Source: Rhizophagus irregularis (taxonomy: Eukaryota; Glomeromycota; Glomeromycetes; Glomerales; Glomeraceae). Taken from it: a DNA stretch of 64,000 nt. Location of the stretch: contig NC_089443.1 in NCBI RefSeq assembly GCF_026210795.1, forward strand, positions 372,001-436,000, read 5' to 3'. The first letter of the stretch is position 1; each line of letters begins with the position of its first letter. Position numbers and translations under genes: made by a program. Shown here piece by piece: positions 31,789 to 55,761 of this stretch. Below the pieces are notes generated by a model. It did not search any database, had not been told where the DNA came from, and was given only the letters and a program-made list of their open reading frames with translations.

Positions 31789-31819
31789 TTGAATTTTATT
31801 CTAATTTAGTTTAAATACG

Positions 31820-34717
31820 ATGTCAACACCAATTGCAATTTATACTCCTTCAGAGCCTACTGGACCGCCTCCTAGGGATTTGCGTGATATGAATAATATA
31901 CCATTAGTTGCGGTAATTAAGGATCTAACAGATTTTTTAACTGTCAGTGATCGCATGGTTGTTAATCGAGATGTACAAAATGCAAACCATCGTCTTAAAC
32001 ATGCTCTTAATTTATTAATTCATCACTGTAGAGAAACATACGAAGAACGCGATATATTAAAAGCGGAACGCGATCGATCTCGAAAAGAACGCGATGAATT
32101 ACAAGATGAACTCGAGGTTCAAACGGGTTTGTTAGGTCTTACACAAGATGAGTTAAATAACGTACAAGATACTATTACTGGTTTAGAAGCTAATTTGGCT
32201 GAATTGGAACGTGAGTTTGGTGGTATGCGGATGACTAATCGTCGTTTTCAGCAGCAATATAATCTTATGAGAGGAGAACGTAATAGAGCTATAGGTGAAC
32301 GTAATAGAGCTATAGGCGAGCGTGATGCGGCACGAAATCGGCTTGTATATGCCAATAATCGGGTTCTTTTTGGAATTCGGACATTGGGACGTCTTAGGAA
32401 TCGACTTTTCCAACAAATAGCCGCTCTGCGTATCCAAGTACAATGATTTCGGATTAGACAATTGAACCCTCCTCCACATCCTTTCAACCATCCACAAAAT
32501 ACGATATGGCTGCCGTTGGTATAGCTGCCCCCATATTTCATGGTCGGGAAGATGAAGATCTTAATCTTTTTATTGATAACTTTTTAGGGTATATTAATAC
32601 CGTTGGTATTGATCCATTGGACGATGCCGGTGCGCCTCCTGGTCAGGTGCGAGCGATGGGGGTTCTTCGTAGCTGTATGAGAGATGAAGCGATGAGGTGG
32701 TTTGATGCGGAACTTACTGGAAAAAATTGGGAACTCTCGAATATTCGGTTAGTGGCTGCTGCAAATGGTGGAGCCGGTGCCACTCGCCGAGCATTCAGAG
32801 CTTTGGTTGTTCCTGAAAATGCTGGTGCTGGACGACTACATCCTAATACTTATGTGCCTGGATCTGCTGCTCATGCATATTCTCTAGTTGGGGTTAATGC
32901 GGCGGTAACTATTGGAGACGCATTTTTCCCGTCACGCGCTGATATCGTTAGAACGAATTTTAAAGTTGAAGAGCAGTGGAGGCGTGCGGGCGGACGTCCT
33001 ACTCATCAACCTGTTAATGGGTTGGGAAATCATGGAGGTCCATTTAATGCTGCTGCCCAGAATCAACCGATAGTCTTACAGGGGATTCTCCTGGATCAAG
33101 CATTTATGCATATGCGTACAAATTTTCCAACCGTCGTGGAAGAAAGACTTCAGATACGATTTAGTAATCTTTACCAGGAACAAGGTGAACCTGTTCGATC
33201 TTACTATAAGCGAGTTGAGAGGGCTGGGGATATTGTAGGATATAATCGAATTATGGTTACTGACCAGTTCTATAGAGGACTTTTGCCGGAAAACGTTATT
33301 GAAGCTTCCAGAATCGGGGCGGCACCTCTTAATATATTAATCGATAGATTGAGTGATCTTGAGCGATGAAAAGGTGAAATGTTCTATGGATTACAAAGGC
33401 GCCAGGGTATTGAAAAGGCTAAAAAAGAGGAATTGGCTGGCTATACTCATCCCGTGACTCCACACGAAGGTGCTGTAATACAAAGGTCGACAGATGTTAT
33501 TACTCAAGAACGATTACAAGAATTGCTCAAGGCGCAGGCCGAGGAACTTACCAAGAATTTCCAGGCGCAATTTAAACAATTACAAGTATCTAAGCCAGTT
33601 CGTAAACTACCGGTCTATAGACAACAGATTAAACCTGTTCGACCAAAACCACAGAGACGCGTTGTTCAGGATCATCAGGATCCTGATTGGGATGATGATT
33701 ATGTAGATCATGATGTTGGTGATGACCCTGATGCTCCTGAATGGACTAGTGAGGATGATCAACATGTTATTGATCTTATTATGGGATATGAGACGTCTAA
33801 AAGATTTCCAAAGCGACTTCAGAAGGCTAAAGATAGATGCGATGATCTGGAATTAGCCTGAGCAATGAGAAACCTCGATCTTAATGATGATGCTATGGAT
33901 ATTGATACTAATACCGCGAGTTTTGATGACTTGAAAATTGTTCCCGATGAGGAAGGTGGTTTTCGGATTTGTGCGGTTCGAAGTACAAAAAAAAGTAAAC
34001 TCGGATAAGGGTGTAAGTATCTCGAAACTTCTTAAATCTGTTCCAAAAAAATCAGTTAAAATGACTCCTATTAAGATTCCTGTGAAGGTTACTAGTAGTA
34101 AGCCCACACTTATAAAAGCCGTCACCAAAAATGATTCATTAAGTTTATTAAAGTCTGCAGATTTTAGAAAATTACTCCGTGAGATTATTCGGGAAGAATT
34201 AAAGTCTGCTCGTAAAAGTACGGAGATTCCAGAAGACCTAGTTGAGGAAAAACAAGAAGAGGATATCAGGGAAGATGACCTGATGGATATTGACATAGCT
34301 CGTTTGGAGAATACTAAAGATCTTTTAGCGCTGGATGGGGAGGTCAATGGGATAGCAATTCAGTGTTTAGCAGACACTTGTGCTAACGCGTCTTTTATTC
34401 AGAGGGAAGCCGCTGAAGAATTAGGGTTGGATATCGACAAGAGTATTACACATAACATATCCGGCACTCCGGGATCTGGTAGGACATTCGGCATGGTAAA
34501 AGGTGTGTCAATCAAACTAACCCCTGATTGTGTAATCACTGAGAATCTCGCGGTTTTAAGCGATTACAAGCATAGGGAGATTGGATTGAGCCGGACGTGT
34601 CTGAAACGTTACAATTATGATGTCCATGAATCATGTGAACATATCGCCCTTACTTGTAATGAGAAGAATGTTTTTATCCCGATAGTTTCTGACGTGAATC
34701 GAGGAGACAAAAAATAG
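31820..34717 (+). pseudogene. Coiled-coil / Gag-like / retropepsin gene of element A
   Basis: One long broken reading. First a coiled coil (31820-32446; ERDRSRKERDELQDELEV and repeated RGERNRAIGERNRAIGER). Then a Ty3-type Gag-like capsid region (32506-33369): APIFHGREDEDLNLFIDNF, MRWFDAELTGKNWEL, and the CA C-terminal pattern RFSNLYQEQGEPVRSYYKRV ... FYRGLLPE. Next a Gln/Lys/Asp-rich linker (33379-33861), then a retropepsin fold (34310-34700) with CLADTCANASFI. The catalytic triad reads DTC rather than DTG. In-frame TGAs occur at 32444, 33367 and 33859, with frameshifts near 32495 and 33990. There is no reverse transcriptase, RNase H or LTR. It converges with the integrase. Element B has the same gene (50879-54086). 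A capsid-like role is inferred. Confidence 0.75.
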
Positions 34718-34731
34718 GGAATATTTATTTT

Positions 34732-35822
34732 TTATTCCCAAAACTTGCGGATTAAGGCAGGGACATCCTCCTCCAACCGGTCAGCGGGTTCCCAAGTGGC
34801 TTCGATATCTGGGTATCGTTCCCACTTGACTAGATACTGGTCTTGACCCTTCCTGATGCGATGCTGGAGTATCCGCTCAGGTACAAATCTTTCGGGTTGC
34901 CCTCTTATCACGGAGCCAGGTGGGGATGTTCATTTTCTGGAACAATCTGCAACTCTTTTCGGGTGTACGCACATCTGGATACACCTAGACGTCCGTGTGG
35001 TCCATCAAGAAGATACGTAGGAGGCTGTTCGGGTGAGAGGATCATTTTTTTGATGACACGGATATTGGGATTCCATCTTATGTCACCTGTACGAAATTTT
35101 CCATGAAGTTTATTACCGAGTATTGAGATAGGTTCATCTAACTTTACTCGGACACGCATTCCTTCAGAGAGAAGGTCCGTCTTTTTTGACACTTTTGGTG
35201 ACCCAGTCGGAATGTCTGGGGGATTTCTTTGCCAGATTTCATCTATTTTACTAACCACATCATGGAAATCTTCTGACCATTCCACGGATGTCACCCCGGT
35301 CTTCAACTCCTGTGCTACCATTCGTTTGAGAAGGGGTTCTTGAATAGCTTGGATAGCTCGTTCAGCGTATGATTGCTGTTTGTGTCTTCCTGGTTCTCTG
35401 AACCTCATCATTACCCCTAGGCTGTTCAGGAAAAAATCGCGTACCTGGTTGTTAGTGAATTCTGATCCGGAGTCTGTCTCCAGTCGATGTGTTGGTGGCT
35501 TAATACGATTTCTTCTGTAGATTTTGGCAAACCCGTTTAGAACCCTATTTGCAGTCTTATCTTTTAGGGGTTCTGCGTCGACTCGTTTACCCGCGACTTC
35601 CACCACTACGAGGAAATAGTGGAATCCTTTGAGGTCGACTGGCATCTCTGCGAGATCTGCCTGATGCGTCGCATTTGGTTTCCATACAACTACTCGTGGA
35701 CGCTCTGATGACTTCTCCTTTAGGGGCTTTTTGTATAGGTTGTAGTGCTCCTCGCCTTTTAGAATTCGTGCCGGTACTCCAGAGAGATTGTAGTATTTGT
35801 AATAATTCTCTAAATGCGACAT
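34732..35822 (-). pseudogene. DDE (retroviral-type) integrase with C-terminal chromodomain, element A
   Basis: An rve-fold integrase that would insert the linear element. I start at the ATG at 35822 (MSHLENYYKY); the longer frame uses TTG. Catalytic residues are D56 (HQADLAEMP), D117 (ETDSGSEF) and E154 (SYAERAIQ), a D,D-36-E spacing as in Maverick/Polinton and Ty3 integrases. A C-terminal SH3-like part ends RKELQIVPENEH. After a 1-nt frame break near 34910 the same strand encodes a chromodomain: RFVPERILQHRIRKGQDQY, then LVKWERYPDIEATWEPADRL. Chromodomains bind methylated histone tails and steer insertion to heterochromatin, which fits the nesting seen here. Confidence 0.85.
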
Positions 35823-35866
35823 ATTACGACAAATTAAAGGAAAGATTTCGGACTTCAAATCTTAAG

Positions 35867-36187
35867 ATGACACGATTTTACTGCCTAAAGTGTAAGAAGG
35901 AAACCGAGACTGCTAGTGAAATACAAGATATGACCACAAATGGCCGCTATCATTTATATGGTAACTGTGTAGTTTGTGGGATGCATAAGAATACTTTTAC
36001 TGGGATAGACTGGGTTATCAAAAAGAAAACCAAGGAGAAGAAAAAAGAAACCGCGGCTAAAAGACATCAGACGGCGTATAATCAGCAATGCAAAAAACTT
36101 GGGCAAAAAATTTTAGAGGCTGATAACGTGTGTAAACAGTGTATTGATAAATGCCTTAAGGAAGCAAAAAAAAGGAAGACGGATTAG
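35867..36187 (+). CDS. DUF5679-like zinc protein
   Basis: A 106-codon ORF; I chose the ATG at 35867 because the conserved domain starts right there: MTRFYCLKCKKETETAS, then NGRYHLYGNCVVCGMHKNTF. The C-x-x-C pair, the NGR-Y/G-x-C-x-x-CG pair and the K-N-x-F ending match a small zinc-ribbon domain common in Polintons, adenovirus-like and giant viruses. A Lys-rich helix and a second cysteine group (CKQCIDKC) follow. It is nearly back-to-back with the integrase start (45 bp) and ends 9 bp before the F-box-like gene stop. Probably a nucleic-acid or virion-core protein; function unproven. Confidence 0.7.
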   Translation: MTRFYCLKCKKETETASEIQDMTTNGRYHLYGNCVVCGMHKNTFTGIDWVIKKKTKEKKKETAAKRHQTAYNQQCKKLGQKILEADNVCKQCIDKCLKEAKKRKTD

Positions 36188-36196
36188 TACCGCCTT

Positions 36197-36712
36197 CTAA
36201 AAGTATTCCTCATCATCCGAGTCATCGAGAGATACCTCTCCATCATCTGATTCATCGTCCGAGTCATCAAGAGTACAGCCTTCCTTAAGCAATTGGATGT
36301 TGTACGTTATTTGAGTCCATTTCTCCCAGTCGGACTCTTGCGTTATAAAGCCACATCTGAGGAGAGCTCTTTCTACTGCCACCATTCCTGCGAACCTAGT
36401 GTATTTTTTCTGATCGGCTTCATTGAAATTGCCAATGGCCTCCCTGTAGTAGTCTACTGCCTGTTTGTATACCTCCTCAGCTTCTTTATATCGCTTCCAC
36501 AACTCGGCTTTACAACCGTTGTACCAGAGTCTGTTTATCTTGAGATGTTTTCCGAATTCTTTGATCGGAAGGTTTCTGACCATCTCTCTCACTATGTCTG
36601 GGTCGTTGAGGGGCGAAGCCTGCATTACTTCCCATTTACGGATCCCATAGATGTCGATAAGATCAAGTCCGAGGTCGTCGGCAAGAGAAGTGGCGGCGTG
36701 TAAGTTTATCAT
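36197..36712 (-). CDS. F-box-like protein at the right end of element A
   Basis: An intact 171-codon ORF starting MINLHAATSLADDLGLDL. After a 30-residue leader, NDPDIVREMVRNLPIKEFGK and LKINRLWYNGCKAELWKRY form a divergent F-box-like helix set. Then come a coiled AEEVYKQAVDYYREA repeat region and an acidic tail (DDSDDESDDGEVSLDDSDDE). Homologues with the same plan begin just inside the TIRs of element B (37597) and element C (38494). Being placed next to the TIR in three elements suggests a role in element biology, for instance recruiting a host ubiquitin ligase. The promoter word ATTGAAGAT lies in the TIR upstream. Confidence 0.65.
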   Translation of the reverse strand: MINLHAATSLADDLGLDLIDIYGIRKWEVMQASPLNDPDIVREMVRNLPIKEFGKHLKINRLWYNGCKAELWKRYKEAEEVYKQAVDYYREAIGNFNEADQKKYTRFAGMVAVERALLRCGFITQESDWEKWTQITYNIQLLKEGCTLDDSDDESDDGEVSLDDSDDEEYF

Positions 36713-36722
36713 TGTATGTTAC

Positions 36723-37197
36723 TTATAGTTACCTAATCTTCAATTGCCGAATATATTTTTTCCAAAGATCCGCGTTCCTACCCGGTCACCCTCCTGTGGT
36801 TCTACAGTCCTTCTAGGGGCTATTAACCTACCTGTTAACTTGGTTTGCTATCTCATTGCCTCCAATGAGAAAATGAATGGAATCCTGAAAGAGTAACGGA
36901 TCGTAACGAATGTAACAGATCTGGGGGGGTAAAATCAAAACTTTTTTCTGAGGGGGTGTCCTCTCCTAACTTTCTGAAATATCTGTTACATCTGTTACTC
37001 CCTTCTGATTCTATCGTATTTTCCTCTCTTTTCCCTTATTTTATCTGTTTTTTAGTATATTTTTAGTAACAGATGTAGTAACGGATAGTAACGGATCTTG
37101 GGGAGTCCCCGCCCCACGGAGAGGGGATGTAGATACTGCGAGGCCGTGAGGCCGAGGTGGGGTGAGCGCTAGCGAGACACACTACCAGCCCGACGAC
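36723..37197 (-). repeat. Element A right terminal inverted repeat (475 bp)
   Basis: Reverse complement of 18732-19214 with scattered single-base differences, ending CCCGACGAC. It contains the same GTTAC/GTAAC iterations near 36890-36925, 36985-37000 and 37065-37095. The adjoining CCTGACAACC already belongs to the TIR of element B. Confidence 0.9.
36736..36744 (-). promoter_or_regulatory. A-family promoter-like motif before right-end F-box-like gene
   Basis: Minus-strand ATTGAAGAT, 24 bp before the ATG at 36712, within the right TIR; the mirror of the helicase promoter-like site. Confidence 0.5.
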
Positions 37198-37557
37198 CCT
37201 GACAACCTTTTTTTTACTATCCCCGTTGCTCTCCCACCGGCTGTGGGTCTAATCCTGGTCACCTTTTTATATTTTTCACCTACTTATATCACCTTTTTTA
37301 TATTTTTACCTACTTATATTCTACTTATTTCATAATCTAATTCACTTATATCCTACTTATTTCATAATCTAAATCGTTTATTAATATTTTCACCTACTTA
37401 CCCCTAACCGAACAAGAAATAGGATTTCAAAGCCAACAGAGCCAAAAAAGGTAAGGAAATATTAACCCATCCAGGAAACCAGCTATGGAGTCAATAGAGT
37501 AGAATAGCAAGGCAAGCAATTACCCTTATACCGAGAAAAAATGTAATTGAATAAAAG
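37198..37557 (+). repeat. Element B left terminal inverted repeat (360 bp)
   Basis: Runs from CCTGACAACCTTTTTTTTAC to AATTGAATAAAAG and is the reverse complement of 56470-56829. It contains iterated words CCTACTTAT and TTTCATAATCTAA (37285-37395) and a GT-rich start CTCCCACCGGCTGTGGGTC. Confidence 0.85.
37545..37557 (+). promoter_or_regulatory. B-family promoter-like motif (left)
   Basis: AATTGAATAAAAG, 39 bp before the ATG at 37597, followed by TATATAAC just before the start. The same word precedes the polymerase and the right-end gene of element B. Confidence 0.5.
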
Positions 37558-37596
37558 GTAGGTACCAAGTAACTATACAGATAAATAGTATATAAC

Positions 37597-37903
37597 ATGG
37601 TATATACCGCTGAAAAGCTGGCATCAATCTTCGGCTGCACAGTCTCCGATCTTATGGCTATCAATAGGGAGATCCTAAAAAGCCACCAAACCCCGTATGC
37701 AGTATCAGTAATCCCCGAACTTGTGGGCCATATCCTGGAATACATTCCAAGTAGAAATTTCAGGACACATCTTCTAGAAGTCAGCCCAATCTGGAGAGCC
37801 GAAGCTGAACGAGTACTCTGGAAGCAGCATAAAAAAGCCGAGGAGGCATACGACAGGGCAGTAGAAAAGAAGAAAAAAGCAAATGATGCTCTTGGCCAAT
37901 GTC
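37597..37903 (+). pseudogene. F-box-like gene of element B, 5' part (cut by element C)
   Basis: First 102 codons (MVYTAEKLASIFGCTVSDLM, then VIPELVGHILEYIPSRNFR and LEVSPIWRAEAERVLWKQHK). This is an F-box-like helix pair followed by the AEEAYDRAVEKKKKA coil, close to the element C copy at 38494. The reading is broken at 37903 by insertion of element C (CCAAT duplicated on both sides). The 3' part continues at 45345. It lies directly inside the left TIR. Confidence 0.7.
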
Positions 37904-38449
37904 GTCAGGCTGGTAGTGTGTCTCGCTAGCGCTCACCCATTTCAGCTTCACGGCCTCGCAGTACCTACATCCCCCCTTCATGGGGTAGAGAATTCCCTAT
38001 ATATACTAACGCCATGGCCACAGTGGCCATGGCTGGTCACAGTACTTTCCAACTTCTTTTTTTTTCTCCATTTTTTCTTATATATAAAACTACTATGACC
38101 ACTATGACCACTATGACCAGACTACTAAAAAGTGGATAAAAACACGAATAAAGCTGAAATCAGACAGAATATCCGGCCATAGTACTGGCCATAGTTCGAA
38201 AAACTTATGATAATACTATGACCACTGAACTATGACCACCCAACTATGACCACCGAACTATGACCACCTTAGTAAGCTCCTCAGGCTCTAAAACCTGATT
38301 TATGCTATGATTATCCTTTATACACTCACCTGGATTCCAAGTATGACCACCGAACTATGACCACCGAACTATGACCACCAAACTATGACTACCAAACTAT
38401 GACCACCGAACTATGACCACTTGCCCCCGTCAGAAAAATATATTCGGCA

Positions 38450-38458
38450 ATTGAAGAT
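38450..38458 (+). promoter_or_regulatory. A-family promoter-like motif in element C
   Basis: ATTGAAGAT, 35 bp before the ATG at 38494; identical in placement to the element A TIR motifs. The mirror copy is at 44817-44825. Confidence 0.5.
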
Positions 38459-38493
38459 TAGGTAACTATAAGTAACCTATAAGGACAAACAAC

Positions 38494-38823
38494 ATGTATA
38501 CCGCAGAAAAGTTAGCAACAATCTTCGGCAGCACAGTTCCCGATCTTATGGGTATCAATAGGGAGATCCTAAAAAGCCACCAAACCCCGCATGCAGTATC
38601 AGCAATCCCCGAACTTGTAGGCCATATCCTGGAATGTATTCCAAGTAGCAATTTCAGGCCACATCTTTTAGAAGTCAGCCCAATCTGGAGAGCCGAAGCT
38701 GAACGAGTACTCTGGAAGCGGCATAAAGAAGCCGAGGAGGTATACAAACAGGCAGTAGACTACTACAGGGAAGCCGTTGATAATCCTGCAGAGTCATATT
38801 TTTTGTCCAGATTTTTACAATGA
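38494..38823 (+). pseudogene. Truncated F-box-like gene in left TIR of element C
   Basis: A 109-codon ORF (MYTAEKLATIFGSTVPDLMG, IPELVGHILECIPSSNFR, then AEEVYKQAVDYYREAVDN). It is homologous to the F-box-like genes of A and B but lacks the C-terminal half and acidic tail. After residue 95 it runs into DNA related to a non-coding part of element A (PAESYF...) and stops. An inverted copy starts at 44781 in the right TIR and is split by the CACTA and hAT insertions. It may still make a short F-box-only protein. Confidence 0.6.
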
Positions 38824-39011
38824 TTGATGACTATGTAACCATATCATCAGGTATCCTTACATTTTTCAACAAGGATTGATGACCATGTAACTTCATCATC
38901 AGGCATTCATGAATTCTTAACATAAACTAATAAATTTTTGAATGTTCTATCTAGTACTCTTTCAAAATTTTGTCTAATCACTAGTTTGAACTGATGAGAT
39001 AGCAAATTAAG

Positions 39012-39824
39012 TTAATCCTCTCCACCAGGTTTCCCTAAAGAAATTCTTGTTGGCTTTGGACTATGTAATAATGCAGAAAGCCAGCAAAATGATTTATCAT
39101 CTCTTATTATATTATTAGCAAAAAGCCATTGTAACATATTATTTCCTTCTTTAAATTCCTCAATATCAAGTGGACATGATCTCAATAGTAATAAAAGTTG
39201 ATTTATATATAATCTAGCCATTTCTTTATCCTCTTCAGTCTGTTCTAAATCTGCTATTGTAGGATCATATGTAAATTGTGAAGTTTTAGAACTAGCAGTT
39301 GAAAGTGGAATACTATGAATACTTGATTTACTAGACAAAGCAGTATGTTGAGACATTGTCTCCTCAAGATCTCGAACAGATTTTTTGGTTGAAGCAGTAT
39401 GTTGAGATAATGTTTCTTGAAGGTTTCGAACAGATTTTTTAGTTGAAGTAGTGTGTTGAGACATTGTTTCCTCAAGATCTTGTATTTTACTTTGTGCTGC
39501 TTCCTGCTGATTTGATAAATCTGTTATATCACCTGACACTCCCTTAATATCCATTGATGTATTTTTTAATTGCCAAGAAATTGCTCGCATTTGTGAAGCA
39601 AGCTCATCTATAGTTGCTTTAAGCTCTTCTACAGATGATGTACCACCATATTTTAGATTGTTTGGAAGGTTATATCCAACTTCTGAAGGTTCTGGAATAG
39701 TTTCTGGATAGCTAATTACTTCAGTAATTTTAGGTATACATGGAATTCTGCGATTCAGATGAGTGTTTCTATCTCGAGTACTTTTAAAATTATCTTTTCC
39801 ACATTTAGGACATGGAGGCAACAT
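39012..39824 (-). CDS. Zinc-finger/coiled-coil protein in core of element C
   Basis: An intact ORF of 270 codons from the ATG at 39824 (MLPPCPKCGKDNFKSTRDRN). The N-terminal C-x-x-C...H...C reading CPKCGKDNF ... HLNRRIPC is a C2H2-like finger with the R-x-P-C ending also seen at 54120-54160 in element B. A long coiled-coil follows with three 22-residue repeats (DLEETMSQHTTSTKKSVRNL and two variants), then a C-terminal helical region ending in KPGGED. It is the only protein of the element C core. A DNA-binding role at the element ends is plausible but unproven. Confidence 0.6.
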   Translation of the reverse strand: MLPPCPKCGKDNFKSTRDRNTHLNRRIPCIPKITEVISYPETIPEPSEVGYNLPNNLKYGGTSSVEELKATIDELASQMRAISWQLKNTSMDIKGVSGDITDLSNQQEAAQSKIQDLEETMSQHTTSTKKSVRNLQETLSQHTASTKKSVRDLEETMSQHTALSSKSSIHSIPLSTASSKTSQFTYDPTIADLEQTEEDKEMARLYINQLLLLLRSCPLDIEEFKEGNNMLQWLFANNIIRDDKSFCWLSALLHSPKPTRISLGKPGGED

Positions 39825-40453
39825 GGTGAATAATATTACAACCACTCAGTAAAGGTAAAGTGTTCATTTCTGATGTGTATGTTCAAATGGACGAATGGAT
39901 GGATGGAATCCTGAACATTATTGTACAAATGGCCAGATGAACAAATGGATGCCATTCCATCTAATGCTATATTTTTAACGTATAAATGGATGGATGGATG
40001 GAATCCTGAACATTGTTGTACAAATGGCCAGATAGATGAACAAATGGATGCCATTCCATCTAATACACATTAGAAATTATTAGAGAACATTCAAAAATTT
40101 ATTAGTTTATGTTAAGAATTCATGAATGCCTGATGATGAAGTTACATAGTCATCAATCCTTGTTGAAAAATGTAAGGATACCTGATGATATGGTTACATA
40201 GTCATCAATCCTTGTAAAAATCTGGACAAAAAATATGACTCTGCAGGATCATCAATGGCTTCCCTGTAGTGGTCTACTGCCTGTTTGTATACCTCCTCGG
40301 CTTCTTTATGCCGCTTCCAGAGTACTCGTTTAGCTTCGGCTCTCCAGATTGGGCTGACTTCTAAAAGATGTGGCCCGAAATTGCTACTTGGAATACATTC
40401 CAGGATATGGCCTACAAGTTCGGGGATTGCTGATACTGCATGCGGGGTTTGGT

Positions 40454-41618
40454 TAGAGCTCCGAATGGGTCAGGTCAGGTCAGGTTAATTGATAAACCTG
40501 ACCTGAAATTTTTTTTCAGGTCAGGTCAGGTCAGGTTATATCAGGTTGTCTGTTTGACCTGACCTGACCTGAAACCTGAAAATTTTCAGGACTATTTTTA
40601 TTAAAGTATTGAAAAAAAACAGTACAAAACTTTTTTTTTTTAATATAATATTATGAAAAAAAAACGTTTTTGCAACGTTTTTTATTAAAATATTGAAAAA
40701 AAATATTGCAAAACATTTTTTTTAATATAACATTATGAAAAAAATGTTTTCGCAACGTTATTATTGAAATATCAAAAAAAAAACGTTACGAAACATTTTT
40801 TTAATATAATATTATGAAAAAACGTTTTCGCAACGTTTTTTCTCAAAATATTGCGATTCAACATTTTTATATTAAAATCATATAAAAAAGTGAATCCCAA
40901 TACTGCAATTCACTTTTTTATATTGATTTTGTATAAAAAAAGTGAGTTGCGGTATTGCGATTCACTTTTTTATATTGATTTTATATAAAAAAAGTGAGTT
41001 GCGGTATTGCGATTCACTTTTTTATATAGAATATTCACTTTTTTATATAAATTCTATATAAAAAAAGTGAGTTGCGGTATTGCGATTCACTTTTTTATAT
41101 AGATTTTATATAAAAAAAGTGAGTTGCGGTATTGCAATTCACTTTTTTATATAGATTCTATATAAAAAAAGTGAGTTGCGGTATTGCAATTCACTTTTTT
41201 TATATAGAATCAATATAAAAAAGTGAATCGCAATGCCGCAACTCACTTTTATTATATAAAATCAATATAAAAAGGTGAATCGCAATGCCGCAACTCACTT
41301 TTATTATATAAAATCAATATAAAAAAGTGAATCGCAATGCCGCAACTCACTTTTTTTATATAGAATCTATATAAAAAAGTGAATCGCAATACTGCAACTC
41401 ACTTTTATTATATAAAATCAATATAAAAAAGTGAATCACAATACTGCAACTCACTTTTATTATATAGTAGAATCAATAGTTTCAGGTCAACAGGTCAATC
41501 AGGTCAGGTCAATCTTCATACCTGACCTGAATTTTTTTTAAAAATCTCATACCTGACCTGAATTTCAGGTCAGGTCAGGTCAGGTTACCTGAATTTGGCT
41601 GACCTGTTCGGAGCTCTA
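40454..41618. mobile_element. Non-autonomous hAT element, 1,165 bp, 8-bp target duplication
   Basis: Termini TAGAGCTCCGAA are perfect inverted repeats, flanked by GGTTTGGT at 40446-40453 and 41619-41626, the 8-bp duplication expected of hAT transposons. Subterminal GGTCA/TGACC runs (AGGTCAGGTCAGG) lie at both ends. The interior has no gene: an AACGTTTTCGCAACG array (40620-40850), then about ten copies of a 58-bp unit based on AAAAAAGTGAGTTGCGGTAT, in opposite orientations on the two sides of about 41190. Confidence 0.9.
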
Positions 41619-41666
41619 GGTTTGGTGGCTTTTTAGGATCTCCCTATTGATACCCATAAGATCGGG

Positions 41667-45344: not shown

Positions 45345-45569
45345 ACCCAATCATTGGAGAAGTAGGGTATCCTCTGTGAACTTGAATGGGAGGCATATCA
45401 AAAGGCTTGTAAAGAGAGAAACAAATGCCGCAGTAGAGCATATTATAGTAAAAGAAGCTATTCGCTGTTGTAACTTACAACTATAAGTTACTTAAGGATA
45501 GAGAATACATCGGGACGAGGATGTGTTCGGTGACTCGGATGACGATGACTCAGATGGTGAAGAATAGTT
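45345..45569 (+). pseudogene. F-box-like gene of element B, 3' part
   Basis: Continuation of the gene cut at 37903. The readable end is acidic, DEDVFGDSDDDDSDGEE followed by TAG, matching the acidic tail of the element A F-box-like protein. Upstream frames are broken by small indels. The CCAAT at 45345 repeats the one before element C. Confidence 0.6.
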
Positions 45570-45653
45570 TAGGAAGACAGTACTAATCTGTCCCCCTCTT
45601 TTTTTACTCTCATAGGGTAGGCAGACAATTAATTTTATTTTCAGAAAAAATCT

Positions 45654-45666
45654 AATTGAATAAAAG
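45654..45666 (+). promoter_or_regulatory. B-family promoter-like motif before polymerase
   Basis: AATTGAATAAAAG followed by GTATAAAAAGTTTACAAG, ending directly at the ATG at 45689. The same pair of words precedes the gene starting at 56445 on the other strand. Confidence 0.55.
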
Positions 45667-45688
45667 AGGAGTATAAAAAGTTTACAAG

Positions 45689-48600
45689 ATGTCAACACAT
45701 CAAGCAAGAAGTGCCCAACACAGACAAGTCATTCGATCAGTTTTAGCTGAACTCAAGCAGGTATCTGTCAAGTCCATCCCATATCCCCGCTCAAATGCAA
45801 AATTGCAGGAATATGAGGATGAGATCCGCCAAATCCGTGAAGCACAAGCAGTGGTAACCAATGAAGAGATAACCCGCATGATGCAAATTGACCCAGACCC
45901 ACATTATGAGGTAGTCTTTGAACGTCGTGATCAGGTACGTATAGGAAAGGAGTTAACAGACTCAAACTTTATGGCTGATATTGCTATAGGAACACCTGGA
46001 GAGCATGACTATGCTTCATTTCTCACAGCACACAGTCAAACAATCCAGAATATTCTTCAAAATGAATGAGATCGATTAGGATCAATAAAGGTAAGAATTG
46101 GAATATTTGCCACAATAAGACGTTTAGATTCTTACCTTGAGGGATTATTCGGAGATGGTAACTTTAGTGAAGATGATGGAGTAGAGTATATCTACAGATA
46201 TAACATACCATTTAAAACTCGCAATATGCCAATCCTACCATCAACAGATATTAATGGTACATTTAACTTTGCATTAGCAAGAATCATGCAGAAAGTAGAA
46301 GACTATGTAAATTACGGATCAGGTTGGGAATTCTATCGTGTAGAAAAAATATTTATAGAAATCTCGCAATTCCAACCACCCACAGGAGCAGGACACATAC
46401 CACTCCCAAAAGATCTTGCCACGAAAAAGGGAGTAGTAAATCCAGCTAATGATGATGACAAATGCTTCCAGTGGGCAATCCTAGCAGCATTACATCCAGT
46501 AGAAAAGAATGCAGAAAGAATTTCCAAGTATAAGGAGTATGTAAATGAGTTAAACTTTGAAGGTATCGAATTTCCAGTACAAGCTGATGAGGTAATTCTA
46601 AGAAGATTTGAGCGACAGAACCCAACTATTGCCCTCTGCATCTGTGAATGGCGTGACCACCGCCTATGTCCAATATATGTTACCGATAGGGATGATGCAG
46701 AGGGCCGTAAAATAATAGATTTAGTACTTATCAGTAATGGGGAAAAGCAGCACTATTGCTGGATTAAGAATATGAGCCGTTTAGTAAATAAACGTACAAA
46801 AAATGGACATGCAATATTTGTCTGCCGATGGTGTATCTCCCACTTCACACATCAACAAGAAATTCATGACAAACATGTAGCAATATGTCGAGGATTAAAG
46901 AAAACCCCACAAGCAGACCGCATGCCATCAGTAAAGAAAGGAAATGATATATATGAATTCAAGAACTGGAAACGCCGCATGCAAGTCCCATATTACTTTG
47001 TTGCAGACTTTGAAGCCTTAGTAATGGACATACCACCCACAGATGAAGACAAAGATAAAAAAACCAAGAAAGTGCAAGAGCAAATCCCCTGCTCATACTC
47101 GTATATTAAGGTAAGATATGATGGTGTAAGTGAATCACAGAAGATATTTACAGGAGAAAATGCAGCACAAAAATTTGTAATCGAAATGCTAAATAAGGCT
47201 GAAGCAATCCGTAATGAATTCAGAAACCCAATGGAAATGATGCCGTTAACAACCCAAGAGCAAGCAAGTTATGATAATGCAATAAACTGCTGGATATGTC
47301 GTAACCCCTTAGATGGAAATAAAGTAAGAGACCACTGCCATATTACAGGAAGGTATCGAGGTGCAGCACATAAAGGATGCAATCTTGACTTATCCATAAA
47401 ACCTCGTAAAATGCATATCCCAGTAATCTTTCACAATTTATCAGGATATGATGGACACATAATTATGCAAGGAATTGGTGCAATGGAATGTGAGGATGAT
47501 ATTGATCCTATCCCTTATAACATGGAAAAGTATATGGCATTCAAGTTAGGTTCCCTCTGATTTATAAACAGCTTACAATTCATGAAATCAAGTCTCAACA
47601 AATTAGCATCCAACCTAGACGCAGAAAAATGTAGAGCACAAGAATGTAGTAATCCACAACACTTATGGCGAATTGATACAGGTAGATGCTTTGCACATCC
47701 CGAAAACTTTAAGATAACATGAAGTCAAATACCACCTGAATTACTTGAGATTTATCTTAAGAAAGGTGTCTACCCATATGAATACATGGATGACTGGAAA
47801 AAGTTCGAGAAAACTAGTTTACCACCTAAAGGAGCATTCTATAGCAAACTTAATGAAACCCACATTAGTGATAAAGAATACGAATATGCACAGTATGTAT
47901 GGGAAAAAGCAGGATGTAAAACAATGCAAGATTATCATGACATTTATCTCAAAACTGACGTCCTCCTACTAGCCGATATATTTCAGAATTTCCGAGAAAT
48001 GGCCTTGAAAAAATATGGGTTAGATCCTCTCTGGTATTACTCAACACCAGGCTTTGCATGGGATGCACTATTCTTCATGACAGGGCAAAGATTGGATCTT
48101 ATAACTGACCAGGATATGTACATAATGGTAGAACAAGGATTACGTGGTGGAATCTCTATGGTAAGTAAACGATATGCTCGTGCAAATAACCCAGATATGG
48201 GAGAAGGTAAATGGACCGCAGAAAAGCCCAAGTCATCTATCCTATACTTAGATGCAAATAACCTATATGGATGGGCCATGTTGCAATACTTATCTACAGG
48301 TAACTTCCACTGGGTAAAGAAGGAAAACGAGTTATTTAACATTCAAAGGCAAATAGAAAGTAATGAAATACCAGATGATTCTTCTGAGGGATATATCCTT
48401 AAAGTCAAACTGGAGTACCCTCAAGCCCTCCATTCACAACACACAGATTACCCCCTTGCACCAGAACGAATGAAGGTTAAAAAGGAATGGCTTAGTAAAA
48501 AGCAGCAGGAAATAATAGCACACTCAGGACAACGATACACATCCACGGATAAGCTCATTCCCAACCTATTCGATAAGGATGAATATGTAGTTCATTACAG

Positions 48601-49836
48601 AAATCTCCAGTATTATGTTAGCCAAGGCTTAGTAATCAAGAAGGTCTATGAATAAGGTTGCTTGTCTAAACCTCTTCAAAATCCTACGATTAGTTTCGTC
48701 AAAATTTTACTATAGATTTATTATAGTTTCGGCAGAGTTTTGGCAGTTTCAGCATTTATAATAAGTTTCGGCAGTTTCGCCTTTCTCCAAAGTTTCACCA
48801 GTTTTTTAATATAACTTTAATATAGTTTCAGCAGAATTTCGCTTTTCGGCAAAATGCCATCTTGCCTAAACCCCTAGGTTTCGGCAAGCAACCTTATCTA
48901 TGAAGCTATAAAATTTGAGCAGGCTCCATGGATGAAACCATACATAGAATTTAACACCGCCGAACGTGCTAAGGCTAAAAACGATTTTGAGAAGGACTTC
49001 TATAAACTCATGAATAATAGTGTATTTGGTAAAACTATGGAAAATCTCAGGAAACGTGTACGTGTCTCAGTAGTACAACCCCAAACCCATCCCAAGAAAT
49101 ATAAAAAGCTTACCTCAGATCCTGCATTCAAAGGTCGTAAAATATTCTCAGAAAATCTTGTTGCAATCCACCGACGAAAAGTGGAGGTAATGCTTAACCG
49201 TCCAACATATGTGGGTATGAGTGTACTCGACCTCTCGAAGCTCTGCATGTATCAATTCACTATGATACTCTTAAGGTACGTTATGGTGAAAAAATCCAGT
49301 TATGTTATACAGATACAGACTCACTCCTCGTATAAATCCAAACTGAGGATATTAATGCAGACCTTATAGATATGGCAGACCAATTCGACTTTAGTGATTA
49401 TCCTAAGGATCACCCTGTACGAGAAGCATTAGGTGACAAGGCTGATATAAACATGAAAATCCCAGGAAAATTTAAGGATGAATGTAATGGAGCAGTTATA
49501 GCAGAATTTATTGGCCTTCGTCCCAAAATGTACTCCATTCTCAAGGTAGGGGATGAGACCACCAATCCAAAACATGGTATCCGTAAAGCTAAAGGTGTCC
49601 CCTCAAAGGTAGTTAAAAAAGAGTTCCACCATGAGCGGTATAATAAGGCACTCTTTGATCCTAAACATAATGATACAGTCACCTTTAGAGCAATCTGATC
49701 TGATAGACATGCCATAAATGTTATAGAAATGTTGAAGGTGGGGTTATCCCTTATGGATGATAAAAAATGGATTGCACAAGATAATATCACAATGTATGCA
49801 CATGGAGACTATAGGATACCACAACTTGAAAATTAA
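45689..49836 (+). pseudogene. Polinton-type family B DNA polymerase with exonuclease (element B)
   Basis: A protein-primed-type DNA polymerase, about 1,290 codons once the insertion is ignored. Exo I VADFEAL (about 47000), Exo II HNLSGYDGH (47430-47460), Exo III YHDIYLKTD (about 47936), motif A YLDANNLYG (about 48245), motif B KLMNNSVFGKTMENL (about 49005) and motif C YTDTDS (49306-49323) are all visible. Between Exo I and Exo II sits a recombination endonuclease VII-like zinc module, CWICRNPLDGNKVRDHCHIT then CNLDL. I start at MSTHQARSAQ because the frame is open to the main body except for TGA at 46067. Further stops are TGA at 47558, 47720 and 49696, plus TAA at 49333, and frameshifts occur near 49270. 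A 244-bp hAT insertion splits it at 48653. Confidence 0.85.
48653..48896. mobile_element. hAT-type MITE, 244 bp, inside the polymerase gene
   Basis: Termini TAAGGTTGCTTG and CAAGCAACCTTA are inverted repeats. TCTATGAA is duplicated on both sides (48645-48652 and 48897-48904), the 8-bp signature of hAT. Removing it joins KKVYE to AIKFEQAPW in one frame. Confidence 0.9.
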
Positions 49837-50891
49837 TATAATATATGAGTAGGAGGCAGCATAGTATCAGATGGCACAACTAATAATTCTTCTCGAGTAA
49901 ATATTTTTTTAGGTCCATCAGATAACCTATATATAACCGGCTGCCCATCAACAACTGTGGAAGATTCAATTGTATAAACTTTAGTAGACCATATTGGATC
50001 AGTTGCACGTCTCCTACCTTGGTAATCTGAGTTATCAAGTAAGTATCTCACAAGAGAACCAGCTGGTAAACGTATTTCTTCTACACCTACAGGTCTATCC
50101 TTCCAAATTTTTGAAGGTAGTGCATACACTTGATCTTTCTGGATTGCCTCAACTGGAAACATACCTAGCAGACGAGTATTAGAATTATTTAGCTCATTCA
50201 CAATATCAGAAAGGTTCTTAACCCAGGCAGTATTCACACCTTCTGTAAGGAGTTCCTTTGCATCCTGTATTTTGAAAAGTCTCTCTGCTAAAGTTCGATT
50301 ATACTGTTCAACAATAGCCTGACTCTTATGAGTAGTACCCACCCGAATACGCACACGTTTTTCATCCATTAATCGGATAACTTCATCCTTAAATTCTGAT
50401 CCCCCATCTACTTGTAAAACTCTTGGCCAAATAAGCGGACAGTCTGCTTTACTATAAATCTTTTTAAATGCCTTAGCAACACGTGCAGAGCTGCGATCTT
50501 CTAGAGGTACTGAAGCTTTATATCGGCTAGCAACATCTACAATATTCAGACAGTATTTATACAGCTTTCTATCTACAGTATCATAGGGCATATATAAGAT
50601 ATCTGCTTGATGATACATATTTGGTCGAGTAATCTTATTAAAAGAAACCTGTGGAACATACTTGGGTATAGGTGAGTGTATTTGCCATATAGCCTGTTTA
50701 TGCAACCACTCTGTAATATCAGATATGTTAAAATCATGGCCATCAGCTTGCACTTTAGCCCAAAGTTTTTCAGGAGTACGATAATATCCACATGGATGGT
50801 AATAGATTTGTTGAAGGATATAATTTTGTTCGATTTGTTTATTAAATGTAGGGTCTATAAAAATCTGTGGAACTGGCAATGGAAGATACAT
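49833..50891 (-). CDS. DDE (retroviral-type) integrase of element B
   Basis: An intact integrase of about 352 codons from the ATG at 50891 (MYLPLPVPQIFIDPTF). An N-terminal helical domain (YYHPCGYYRTPEKLW ... SDITEWLHKQAIWQIH) replaces the HHCC finger, as in Polintons. Catalytic residues are D97 (HQADILYMP), D162 (QVDGGSEF) and E195 (AIVEQYNR). The C-terminal SH3-like tail reads VIYRLSDGPKKIFTREELLVVP; no chromodomain follows, unlike element A. Its start overlaps that of the Gag-like gene by 13 bp on opposite strands, and its stop overlaps the polymerase stop by 4 bp. Confidence 0.85.
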   Translation of the reverse strand: MYLPLPVPQIFIDPTFNKQIEQNYILQQIYYHPCGYYRTPEKLWAKVQADGHDFNISDITEWLHKQAIWQIHSPIPKYVPQVSFNKITRPNMYHQADILYMPYDTVDRKLYKYCLNIVDVASRYKASVPLEDRSSARVAKAFKKIYSKADCPLIWPRVLQVDGGSEFKDEVIRLMDEKRVRIRVGTTHKSQAIVEQYNRTLAERLFKIQDAKELLTEGVNTAWVKNLSDIVNELNNSNTRLLGMFPVEAIQKDQVYALPSKIWKDRPVGVEEIRLPAGSLVRYLLDNSDYQGRRRATDPIWSTKVYTIESSTVVDGQPVIYRLSDGPKKIFTREELLVVPSDTMLPPTHILY

Positions 50892-53800
50892 CGTTGAAGA
50901 CACAGATTACAAAGCTTGCACATACATTGCAATCACAAGAGCAATATATAAAATACCTGTATGGTGTAATCGAAGGTCGTGAATCTGAGATAGAAGAACT
51001 TAGGCAAAAAAATGCTGAGTTGCGTGCAAAGCTTAAGAAAGCATTAGAAACGGCATCACTAAAGGAGGAAGGGCTTCAAGCATTAGAACGTCAGCTGATT
51101 GAAGTTGATACTCTAAATATTCAACTTAAAGATCGAATAAAAGAACTTGCTAATAGACAACGGAAAAACATGGCAGCAATTCCTCCTGACCCTATTACAG
51201 AAATCTTAAATAATCGGACAACTATAGCAAATAGTGTAGCTGGTATTCGTATTCACCTTGATCGTACAACTATTGTAGCACACCTTCATATAAATCATTT
51301 ATTTAACACTGCAAATGATAGTCTTGATGCTATTATCCGATATGCTAATGAGTTGCGAAATATTATAGAAGATCAAGATAATATGGAGGATAGACTTGAA
51401 GGTTTGTTAGATGATGCACATAACCGTGAAGAATATCTTAGACAAAAACTTAATAATACACGTGCTACTATACTGAGAACAAGACGTACTTATGAGGATG
51501 CATATGCAAATGAAGTGCGTCATCGCCAACATTGGGAAGCCCTTACACAAAATACTCAGATCCAATTGGCTAACATCCAGGCTCAATTTGCTAACAGTCA
51601 AATCCAACTAGCTAATGTCCAGAGAGAACGTGATGAGAGTAGAAGAAATGCTCATAGATTATTACAGCGCTATAATACTGAAACAGAGCAAAGTAGAAGG
51701 CGGGCTAATGGTATCATTCAGCAAGCTCGAGCATGGAGAGGGCAATTTTTAAACTGTCGCAATCATGGCCAAAATTTGCAAAATCAGGTCAATAATTTGA
51801 ATCAACAGATTCTAGCATTACAAAATAACCCTCCGGTAATACAACAACCGATAATGGCAGAATATGCACCTAAAAAATTTAGAGGAGCATCTGGTGAAGA
51901 TCCAGAACTTTGGCTTCAAGAATTCAGGCAATGGTGTGAGTCTGCTGGACTTGATCCTGCTGCTAATGCTAGGACTCGTGTTAGGATTCATGGGATCTTT
52001 GAAACTTTACTTGAAGATGATGCTAGAGATTGGTATGAAACACATATCAAAGGAAAAAATTGGGAATGTGTAAATCTTCTGGATAATACTGGTGTGACCA
52101 ATCTTGCTGCTTTTAATGCTTTGAATAATGGCGCTATACAGGCTGTAGTGGCGAATCAATTTCGTGGAGGGGCTGGTGTATTACATGGACAAGCAGCTGC
52201 AGTTAATACTATTACTGGTGCTAATTTTATACCTGATCATACTGTATGGGATGAAGATTGGTCAATAGTCGAGGGTCGTCCTACTGATATAGCTGTTAAT
52301 AATCCTAATGCTAATAATGGAGGTACAATTGTGGCTCCTGGAATACATATTGGACAATTAATATATCGTTTTAAGCATTACTTCCTACTATAACATCTGA
52401 AAAGTCTAAGCTTGCATTTAATGCTATTGTTCAGGGTAGTGATACTGTAAGCCGATTCTATTCTAAATTACGAAGAATGGTTAGACTTGCATATCCAACT
52501 CTTCCAGAGGTAAATCAGAATGAATTAGTACGGCAACAGTTCTTAAATGGTCTTTCCAGTGAAAATAAGTTGGATGCACGACGTATTGGTTTAGAAAACT
52601 CAGTTGCATCTATTCTGAATAAATTGGAAGAAGTTGAGAAATACAGGACAGATATGCCACCTACTCCTATAGTTACATATCAGGGTCCAACTTTAGCGGA
52701 TATTGAGAATCTTATAAATTCTAAAATTCCTATAACTACGGCTAGATCATCTGCAGTACCAGTACCATCTTCTAGTCCATTTTCAAGTCCTCAAAATGAT
52801 ACATCATTTCAGAGATTACTTGCTTTAGCATATAAATTAGGTCTTCCAAGAGATATCGATATAAGTAAAGTAACCCTTAGTGATCTTGAAATATTTATTG
52901 ATACAAAACTTAATAAAAAATTACCACCTGACCATATTTACCATGGTAATCAGGTATTTGGTATGAGCTCAGGTACACGCAAACCAAAGAAATCAAAGAA
53001 ATGCTCAAGTTGTGGAAAATCTGGTCATACTAAGAGTTCCTGTCCAAAATCTAAGAAGGGAAGAGGAAAACAAATTATGCACATGACTCCTCTGATTCCT
53101 CTAACTCTTCTGATGCCTCTGACTCCTCTGACTTCTCTGATAGTGATTCAGACTCTGGACATGCCTGCTATGGGATTAAAAAAAAAGCCTACAGAAAGGA
53201 AACGTGTAGATAAAAAGCCTACTGATAAGAAAAAATCACAACTTGAAAGGCAGCGTATTATCTTTGAGGTTTTTATACAACTCTTAAAGCTTCTGGTTCA
53301 ATCCTTCGTTAATGCTGTACCAAAAGAGACTGTTATATCTGCTTACAATGCTCTGAATGCTGAATTCATTAATTATAAAGAACCAGTACTCAGTCAGCTT
53401 AAAGGAGAACCCTCGATAAAAACACGTGAAAAAGTTTGGGATAATGTTAAGGACCTTTTCACATCTATCCTTCATCCTATGATTTCGGTTGTAACTAATA
53501 GTATGGCTGCAAATTTAATCCGTAAAAATGATGATGTTATATGTAATAATGACTTATGGTCTTCTATAGCAGGTATTGGAATTGTTAACCGCAAGTCTGC
53601 TAGTAATGTAGTCACTATTAAGACTAAAGTAGTCGCACCTGAGAGTGAAAAATCTTTAGTTATTCCTACGACAATTTTCGATACTGGTTCTGATAGTTCT
53701 CTAATATCTAACAATATCGTGAAGCGCCTAAATCTTGATGTCGATAGAAGTAATGCTCCTGACCTTAGTGGTGTTGCGACAAAATTGATACTATTGGGAC

Positions 53801-54086
53801 AGTATATGGTCTTGGTATTCTTGTGTATGATGGGGAAAACTCTAAAAAAATCGAAGATGACTTCATGGTTGTTAAGAGTGATAAGGACTTTTTATTACTG
53901 GGTGTACCTTGGATTGATCGTGCTAATGTCATTCTAGATTTCCAAAATCGGCAACTGACCATCCCTCTATCATCACGTAAAAAAATTACCATTCCAATTT
54001 CTCTACATAAACGGAAAACTAACGTGACTTCCTTGCAGATGGATACTATCAACTTAAAAAAAATTTACACTCTCGAGAAAGATTAA
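50879..54086 (+). pseudogene. Coiled-coil / Gag-like / zinc-knuckle / retropepsin gene of element B
   Basis: Start ATG at 50879 (MEDTSLKTQITKLAH). Order: long coiled coil (to about 51850); Ty3-type Gag capsid N-domain (PKKFRGASGEDPELWLQEFR, DDARDWYETHIKGKNW); after a 1-nt loss near 52375 the CA C-domain (FYSKLRRMVRLAYPTLPE, RQQFLNGLSSENKLDAR); a CCHC zinc knuckle CSSCGKSGHTKSSC (53002-53043); a linker; then a retropepsin with IFDTGSDSSLIS (53673-53710) and, after a frame break near 53780, the flap and LLGVPWIDRANVILDF. All canonical Gag-PR features are present, including an intact DTG. There is no reverse transcriptase, RNase H or LTR. The pairing with integrase and PolB in a DNA element is repeated in element A. 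Two frameshifts make this copy non-functional unless recoded. Confidence 0.85.
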
Positions 54087-54205
54087 CCTGTCATCTATGT
54101 GGAGCAAGTTTTGACTTTCCCTCTAAGTTAAAGCGTCATCTTGCTAGGAAAAATCCATGTGTTTCCCAAACTTCTGCAGCAATGATGGGCAGTGGCGGGC
54201 AGTGA
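54070..54205 (+). other. C2H2-like zinc-finger coding fragment
   Basis: In a frame overlapping the retropepsin tail, RERLTCHLCGASFDFPSKLK then RHLARKNPCVSQ form a C2H2-like finger with an R-K-x-P-C ending, like the N-terminus of the element C core protein. No ATG is available. It may be a frameshifted C-terminal finger of the Gag-protease gene or a scrap of a separate gene. Confidence 0.45.
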
Positions 54206-54320: not shown

Positions 54321-54333
54321 GCCTTTACAAATA

Positions 54334-55742: not shown

Positions 55743-55761
55743 AAAATGGTTTCACTGGGAA

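Follow-up and report, generated by a model that had tools for sequence, protein, structure and literature searches.

The window analyzed here, a 64,000-nt stretch of Rhizophagus irregularis DNA (NC_089443.1, positions 372,001 to 436,000, forward strand), contains two decayed Maverick/Polinton-like elements, A and B, that each combine a retroelement-type Gag and a retropepsin with a DDE integrase, a family B DNA polymerase (PolB), and terminal inverted repeats (TIRs). A preliminary description of this DNA had noticed the combination and read it as a DNA element with a retroelement Gag as its capsid. The observation was confirmed and proved to be general in this genome, as shown by gene content, TIRs, target duplications, linkage in many copies, a predicted CA-like fold, and purifying selection. 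The reading itself was supported: A and B are probably decayed self-synthesising elements in which a retroelement-type virion module replaces the double-jelly-roll capsid and the adenovirus-type protease. Lineages A, B, D, E, and F were compared, together with five bounded copies that included an A-type copy on C20, B-type copies on C16 and C29, and a D copy on C9; the E and F stretches examined were incomplete.

Gene content of elements A and B

Element A (18725-37206, ~18.5 kb) is delimited by TIRs found by repeat comparison (left, 18725-19214, plus strand; right, 36723-37206, minus strand) that are 96% identical over 493 aligned bp. No clear target-site duplication was seen at this copy. 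Next to the left TIR, an ORF on the plus strand (19343-21718) encodes a helicase/primase-like protein (DUF5906; PF19263, E 3.5e-17), which also matched NCBIfam primase_Cterm with an E-value of 2.9e-7, below the curated cut-off. It is followed on the same strand by a PolB of the organellar/viral type (21840-23441; PF03175, E 2.8e-6). The A32-type ATPase that had been reported for A is present, but a 3.5-kb repeat array (27919-31486) interrupts its gene, and both parts score below the cut-off for PF04665. The C-terminal part lies at 27026-27868 (E 0.012) and the N-terminal part with the P-loop at 31393-31800 (E 0.02), both on the minus strand. The array is missing from the C20 relative, the uninterrupted ATPase of which (C20:558155-558985) matched PF04665 with an E-value of 1.8e-9.

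The Gag-protease gene of A occupies four plus-strand ORFs in the window. A coiled-coil N-terminal ORF (31820-32446), with weak matches mostly to coiled-coil families, precedes the Gag capsid ORF (32506-33369), assigned as CA-like from an AF2 model and a fold search against the PDB. A linker ORF (33379-33861) leads to a retropepsin-like protease (33935-34717; PF13650, E 3.3e-7). Database models join several of these parts: P0001 unites the coiled-coil ORF and Gag in one protein, and P0003 and P0004 unite Gag and the linker. The active-site motif at 34370 reads DTC, so the activity of the A-type protease is uncertain. The DDE integrase of A is encoded on the minus strand (34908-35861; PF00665, E 2e-8). 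This ORF has 317 aa; the commonest length of element integrases is 376 aa (62/127 genome rows), and the one 376-aa A-type copy scanned carries a C-terminal chromodomain.

Element B (37198-56829) measures ~12.2 kb without a nested element and is flanked by TIRs that are 98% identical (37198-37557 and 56470-56829). Long blocks of it are 93-98% identical to the C16 copy, the outermost ~96 bp of which are unmatched in the window. The nested element C (37901-45346) has A-type TIRs (92.5%) with CCAAT on both flanks. It sits inserted in B, and comparison with the uninterrupted site in the C16 copy shows the 5-bp duplication. Its interior gave no PolB, Gag, or integrase match in the genome-wide match lists. 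The PolB of B (45677-49698, plus strand) is broken into several ORFs, two of which matched PF03175 (E 4.9e-6 and 2.5e-5). The DDE integrase (49833-50906, minus strand; PF00665, E 1.4e-8) is divergently oriented to the Gag gene. Of the latter, a first plus-strand ORF (50879-52393) covers the coiled coil and N-terminal Gag, as judged from homologs; Retrotrans_gag was reached only via relatives, in 6 of the 15 members of the B alignment. The second (52375-54086, plus strand) covers C-terminal Gag, the CCHC knuckle that had been ascribed to B (53002-53043; PF00098, E 0.018), and the retropepsin (PF13650, E 0.0037), both scores being below the cut-off. The gene is broken at two places in the window, with the frame lost near 53800; in the C29 copy of B, Gag-protease forms one continuous ORF of 1075 aa.

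Coiled coil, Ty3-type Gag region, retropepsin, and DDE integrase were thus recovered in both A and B as described, in part with weak domain scores, and the polymerase of each belongs to PF03175. The claim of one Gag-protease gene per element needs correction, as neither window copy of that gene is intact.

Linkage of Gag with element genes in the genome

Genome-wide, Gag of this type was counted at 241 merged loci, and an element integrase lay at most 7 kb away at 200 of them. Co-location was expected by chance for 4.6 of 203 and was observed for 170 of 203. Such a Gag also occurred within 15 kb of 54 of the 63 PolB_2 matches and within 7 kb of 80 of the 88 A32-type ATPase matches. The number of loci, the intact ORFs elsewhere, and the purifying selection described below bear out the earlier statement that this is not one chance insertion.

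Reverse transcriptase (RT) behaved differently. None of the 241 loci lay within 7 kb of the 150 RTs listed from 1007 candidates, whereas 104 of 150 Ty3 Gags did. Intact ORFs for RT and for Ty3 Gag are numerous in the same genome. In the window, no RT, RNase H, or LTR-like repeat was found with either Gag gene, in agreement with the preliminary description. A Pfam scan of 129 of the 146 element ORFs detected no RT, RNase H, or capsid family, and no capsid family was found among 93 ORFs by Pfam or PHROGs. The ORFs scanned likewise gave no Pfam match to an adenovirus-type cysteine protease; a retropepsin is present instead. In a genome search with PF04451, the control itself matched nowhere. The reported lack of a jelly-roll capsid and an adenovirus-type protease held for the ORFs scanned, and intact relatives contained no separate capsid candidate. 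The elements may once have had a jelly-roll capsid that was later replaced.

Homology, predicted fold, and selection of Gag

The Gag proteins of A and B are homologous yet strongly diverged (hhalign 99.9%, E 1e-34, 19% identity), which matches the earlier remark that the two copies are very different. The AF2 model of A Gag had a mean pLDDT of 66.9, with better scores for two helical domains. Fold searches, which had been proposed as a check, returned CA or Gag-derived proteins of retroviruses and retrotransposons in 50 of the 50 PDB matches listed for each of two divergent Gag lineages. The Foldseek E-values were modest, none being below 0.03 (the best, 0.034 and 0.057, are not significant), and helical folds inflate Z. 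In a viral fold library, retroviral Gag ranked first (E 0.005) and a herpesvirus protein second, with unrelated proteins mixed below. Among the fold matches were the solved structures of the Gag-derived restriction factors Ty1 p22 and Drt2. For two lineages the models predict a CA-like fold that has both an N-terminal and a C-terminal helical domain. Searches against PDB sequence profiles returned coiled coils for the most part, and CA was not among the matches; the B-type profile added weak rows for zinc knuckles, including retroviral nucleocapsid, and for DDI1-type proteases. The dN/dS values of Gag, 0.21 and 0.31, indicate purifying selection.

Bounded relatives and further lineages

The cleanest bounded relative is the D element C9:1345361-1357188. 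It is 11.8 kb long, has TIRs of 912 bp that are 99.9-100% identical, and is flanked by a 5-bp target duplication, TGACG. Its genes encode PolB, Gag with CCHC, retropepsin, and integrase. The remaining stop-to-stop ORFs are all at most 147 aa, a size too small for an intronless capsid gene, and contain no separate capsid candidate. The bounded relatives of B (C16 and C29) and of A (C20) likewise hold Gag-protease ORFs. TIRs were present in all five bounded relatives, and target duplications were read by eye in four (TGACG, CCTGG, AACCGG, and GTAAT). In the incomplete E and F stretches no TIRs were found. Direct repeats of at least 80 bp at a distance of more than 400 bp were absent from the four of five bounded elements tested. 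Gag genes nested in LTR elements, which would have spoken against the earlier reading, were not seen; the Gag genes lie inside the TIRs of DNA elements.

Queries from A and B did not detect the Gag of lineage D, which hence initially seemed to lack one; this assignment was rejected, as D has an ORF of its own for Gag with CCHC, followed by the protease. Lineage F, in which the integrase lies 5 kb downstream of Gag on the same strand, was considered as an LTR element and rejected: an A32-type ATPase, but no RT, is encoded between the two. The integrase has a gene of its own, on the strand opposite to Gag, in A, B, D, and E. PF00665 scored above the cut-off in A, B, and A-type C20 and below it in D and F (E 7e-7 to 8e-7). 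PF03175 had 63 matches genome-wide, D included, and intact PolB ORFs are present. Whole-ORF Pfam scans of D PolB and of the B-type C29 PolB did not return this family; D PolB carries DANNLYG, KLMNNSVYG, and DTDS, which we take to be polymerase motifs. The PolB of lineage E is of another type, PF00136. An A32-type ATPase is present in A (split and weakly scoring), A-type C20, E, and F; neither element B nor lineage D showed a recognisable packaging ATPase.

Programmed -1 frameshifting from Gag into protease was considered. A-type C20 and two D copies (C16 and L044) combine an A9 or A10 run with a -1 relation of the two frames, and a further A copy, L012, also has the -1 relation. Other frame relations occur in window A, L013, L014, and D on C9. 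None of the 39 and none of the 10 candidate stretches from IMG/VR scans proved to be a relative. No useful match came from searches with the single sequences of D PolB or D integrase, and D protease gave a weak DDI1 match (0.039).

Proposed function and alternative explanations

In the explanation that we favor, the element DNA would be copied by its own PolB, and the integrase would insert it with duplications of 5-6 bp. Gag may assemble a shell that is matured by the retropepsin and that would ferry the element DNA across the cytoplasm or from one nucleus to another. Loading of the DNA could be accomplished by the A32-type ATPase where present and by a basic or CCHC Gag tail in B and D. Because no ATPase was recognised in B or D, any DNA packaging there would go another way. 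Several observations count against this explanation: the Foldseek E-values are not significant, the PDB sequence profiles gave no CA, B and D show no recognised packaging ATPase, the A-type protease reads DTC, the comparison with RT covers 150 of 1007 candidates, a listed integrase was absent within 7 kb of 41/241 Gag loci, and the Gag/protease frame relation varies between copies.

Somewhat unlikely, in our judgment, is that Gag-protease was kept for a non-encapsidating task, i.e. that it serves to condense element DNA, to set up a replication body, or to act against host Ty3-type retroelements, the element being a capsidless transposon. Gag-derived restriction factors exist, and the fold matches to Ty1 p22 and Drt2 fit this explanation, as does the lack of a recognised packaging ATPase in B and D. 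Some Polintons have also been proposed to have dropped the capsid for a transposon life (PMC7805220). However, the protease ORF was kept in 5/5 bounded copies looked at, as expected for particle making; the proximity of A32-type ATPases to Gag (80/88) is expected for particle filling; and a two-domain CA with a coiled coil is under purifying selection.

A particle that carries RNA, in which Gag packages element transcripts that a Ty3 RT copies in trans while PolB is secondary, is improbable. The CCHC knuckles of B and D and the abundance of intact ORFs for RT and Ty3 Gag in the genome would suit it, but the elements end in TIRs rather than LTRs, long direct repeats are lacking in the four bounded elements tested, intact PolB ORFs are retained, and an ATPase of the DNA-packaging type adjoins Gag in several lineages. 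We attach hardly any probability to LTR retrotransposon relics having landed by chance in or beside DNA transposons, for all that the genome is rich in Ty3 elements and the window copies are broken. Gag adjoins the integrase in lineages with Gag identity down to 19%, co-location exceeds expectation (170 against 4.6 of 203), and bounded copies hold Gag inside TIRs with target duplications. On the TIRs, target duplications, co-location, and absence of long direct repeats in the four bounded elements tested, an LTR insertion inside a DNA transposon was rejected.

If the Gag-shell explanation is true, a capsid with its maturation protease passed from reverse-transcribing elements to a DNA-polymerase element. 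A wider proposal, for and against which we see about equal chances, is that a whole group of DNA viruses or virus-like transposons lives in arbuscular mycorrhizal fungi, their dsDNA being copied by a polymerase of their own and enclosed in Gag shells of retroviral type. Gag, retropepsin, and integrase would form its constant core, the replication module would vary (PF03175 in A, B, and D; PF00136 in E), and the capsid region would diverge or be swapped between close relatives. If such Gag-shelled DNA elements are real, retroviral capsids crossed into DNA-replicating viruses.

Comparison with known elements

Caulimoviruses have a Gag-derived coat protein and a particle with double-stranded DNA and replicate by reverse transcription; in contrast, no RT was found in the elements described here. 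With Ty3/Gypsy elements (Metaviridae) they share a coiled-coil/CA Gag, CCHC, a retropepsin, and a DDE integrase, to which a chromodomain is added in the scanned A-type copy. They differ in that no RT, RNase H, or LTRs were found, the integrase has a separate gene, and they possess their own DNA polymerase and TIRs. Ginger DNA transposons are not known to carry PolB. They resemble our elements in having a Gypsy-like integrase within a TIR element, but the additional protease domains given for them in the accessible part of the source are OTU or Ulp1, not retropepsin (PMC2836005).

Maverick/Polintons are defined by PolB, an rve integrase, and TIRs (PMC12220804). The elements share with them and with Polinton-like viruses a PolB of the organellar/viral, presumably protein-primed, type, an rve integrase, TIRs of several hundred bp, 5-6-bp duplications, and, in A and some other lineages, an A32-type ATPase. 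They differ in carrying Gag and retropepsin, with no jelly-roll capsid or adenovirus-type protease found, and in the PF00136 polymerase of lineage E. According to a 2021 paper, R. irregularis Polintons have PolB and RVE, and no MCP had been found in them (PMC7805220). The elements described here are very probably these capsid-lacking Polintons; Gag is not mentioned in the accessible part of the paper. Most subscription papers and bioRxiv preprints aside, no description of Gag in Polintons was found in the literature searched. The element Gag is the obvious candidate for the MCP reported missing in this fungus, and its presence in this place changes "lost the capsid" to "may have another capsid". 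It also suggests that the transfer of a capsid type from one kind of virus to another, unrelated one is possible. Assembly and cargo are directly testable because copies with near-identical TIRs and intact ORFs exist. R. irregularis, a root-symbiotic fungus, is grown in many laboratories.

Gag Genes Lie within Terminally Bounded DNA Elements

In the window, whose top protein matches come from Rhizophagus irregularis, two decayed Maverick/Polinton-like elements, A (18725-37206) and B (37198-56829), were delimited by TIRs of 493 bp (96%) and 360 bp (98%), respectively. Element A encodes a DUF5906 helicase/primase-like protein (E = 3.5e-17), PolB_2 (2.8e-6), an A32-type ATPase split in two (0.02 and 0.012), a coiled coil plus Gag, a retropepsin (3.3e-7), and an rve integrase (2e-8). 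Element B carries PolB_2 (4.9e-6 and 2.5e-5), an rve integrase (1.4e-8), a coiled coil with Gag, a CCHC motif (0.018), and a retropepsin (0.0037). The window Gag ORFs gave no direct match to Gag families in the domain scan. The preliminary description had assigned one Gag-protease gene to each element; the domains are present, but both window genes are broken rather than single and intact. The intact form is seen in a B copy on contig C29, where a single 1075-aa ORF comprises coiled coil, Gag, CCHC, and protease. The protease motif is DTC in A-type elements (window position 34370; Pro ORF of the relative L041) and DTG in B and lineage D, and activity of the A-type enzyme is uncertain.

Bounded relatives were found elsewhere in the genome, their target duplications being read by eye. 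An element of lineage D, a further Gag-bearing group (C9:1345361-1357188), has TIR pieces of 188 bp (100%) and 724 bp (99.9%) and the duplication TGACG. It encodes PolB (1376 aa, one ORF), Gag (696 aa), protease (307 aa), and integrase (400 aa), and all its remaining stop-to-stop ORFs are at most 147 aa long. A second D copy, on C16, is flanked by CCTGG, its left tip being three bases shorter. B copies on C16 (TIRs 382 bp, 100%; duplication AACCGG) and C29 (450 bp, 99.3%; no duplication recognised) and an A-type copy on C20 (464 bp, 97%; GTAAT) were also bounded, and the ATPase of the last is uninterrupted (277 aa, A32 E = 1.8e-9). Gag lies between the TIRs of these relatives and is therefore part of complete units, as had been proposed. 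The near-identical TIRs of some copies suggest recent insertion.

A third element, C (37901-45346), is nested in B, has A-type TIRs, and is flanked by a 5-bp duplication, CCAAT being present on either side. DNA alignment showed the C16 B copy to be continuous exactly where C interrupts the window B, with a 5-bp overlap; the outermost ~96 bp of the TIR of this copy are unmatched in the window. The genome-wide match lists placed no PolB, Gag, or integrase inside element C, which is perhaps a non-autonomous passenger moved by an A-type integrase. AT-rich tandem arrays with short palindromes (units of roughly 110-150 bp) adjoin the left end of A (17314-18724), split its ATPase gene from within (27919-31486), and lie within C (42033-44411). 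By eye, a 619-aa ORF at 2901-4760 (plus strand) resembles a DNA-transposon transposase, and broken ORFs outside B at 57332-63816 (minus strand) resemble a LINE-type retrotransposon.

Linkage of Gag to Integrase, PolB, and ATPase

The genome (146.7 Mb, 32 contigs, the window being C15:372001-436000) yielded 203 merged Gag loci from 139 matches and 100 of the 150 rows of a second search, the other 50 being the same loci. Counts rest on the matches listed, and many loci are fragments. An element integrase lay within 7 kb of 170 of the 203 loci (mean 4.6 and maximum 12 in 200 random draws) and PolB_2 within 15 kb of 38 (random, 2.5). None was within 7 kb of an RT among the 150 listed of 1007 candidates (random, 2.9). 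Of 150 control Retrotrans_gag loci, 104 had a listed RT less than 7 kb away, four were near an element integrase, and two were within 15 kb of PolB_2. Inclusion of D and G Gag (52 of 70 rows typed, the other 18 being loci already counted) enlarged the set to 241 loci. Integrase was near 200 of them and an RT, again among the 150 listed of 1007 candidates, near none.

Gag was likewise found near 201 of 221 integrase loci, within 15 kb of 54 of 63 PolB_2 matches, and within 7 kb of 80 of 88 A32 matches; none of these 88 was near a listed RT or Ty3 Gag. Among the matches listed, 41 of 241 Gag loci are without integrase and nine of 63 PolB_2 matches without Gag. Two PolB_2 matches 12 kb apart (C8:2703938 and C8:2715967), with no listed Gag near, possibly mark a lineage with another capsid.

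Other Genes of the Elements

Bounded and part-bounded elements and the window contain 146 ORFs of at least 100 aa, of which 129 were scanned (36 singly, 93 as a set); the other 17 are those of the second B copy. Families matched in the 93-ORF set were rve, retropepsin families, F-box, endonuclease VII, CCHC, C2H2, chromodomain, DUF5679, DUF5906, 2C_adapt, A32, PolB_2, and Retrotrans_gag, along with three further weak families. Neither RT or RNase H nor a capsid family was found in this set or among the 36 ORFs scanned singly. The 13 PHROGs families matched by the set included no capsid family; one ORF matched a terminase large subunit family (8.5e-8).

Lineage E (two copies, on C21 and C30) combines Gag, protease, integrase, and A32-type ATPase in stretches where no outer boundaries were recognised. 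This module is coupled to a PF00136-type PolB (1.6e-43 and 4.8e-37; same side in both copies; 44% identity over 544 positions), whereas A, B, and D have the PF03175 type. Lineage F (C5, C2, and C9) has Gag, integrase, and A32-type ATPase (9.7e-6, C5 copy); PolB and element boundaries were not seen in 10 kb per copy. In lineage G, Gag is 32-34% identical to D and the adjoining integrases 36-38% to B.

Selection, Divergence, and Distribution

Gag dN/dS was 0.31 for window A versus the A-type C20 copy (near saturation) and 0.21 for two D copies (27 differences). The observations made here cover gene content, linkage, selection, and the predicted fold; beyond them, a linear element would, as a working scheme, probably be copied by PolB and inserted by the integrase, giving a 5-6-bp duplication; Gag would assemble and then be matured by retropepsin, and the putative DNA cargo would be loaded by the A32-type ATPase where present.

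Window A and the C20 copy share 91% integrase identity but only 45% Gag identity, and their DNA alignment stops across the Gag region. Identity between E (L029) and F (L024), taken over 30-residue segments, is 58-100% in the coiled coil, then drops to 16-57% across the CA region. Judged from these sequences, the capsid region has either been exchanged or is evolving much faster than the remainder. Such sharp divergence among close relatives possibly reflects capsid exchange or diversifying selection.

In the available excerpts of earlier work, MCP was undetectable in Polintons of Glomus intraradices (R. irregularis), none having been found by that date (PMC7805220); MCP, PRO, and ATPase are jointly absent from some Polintons (PMC4028283); Maverick belongs to the families that expanded recently in R. 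irregularis and has weakly methylated copies (PMC8647823); and curated orders include Maverick (PMC11075540). The same excerpts of these four sources contained no mention of Gag in these elements. No relatives were found in IMG/VR. Homologs occur in R. irregularis, R. diaphanus, R. clarus, Diversispora epigaea, Acaulospora colombiana, and Entrophospora sp. and among metagenome proteins.
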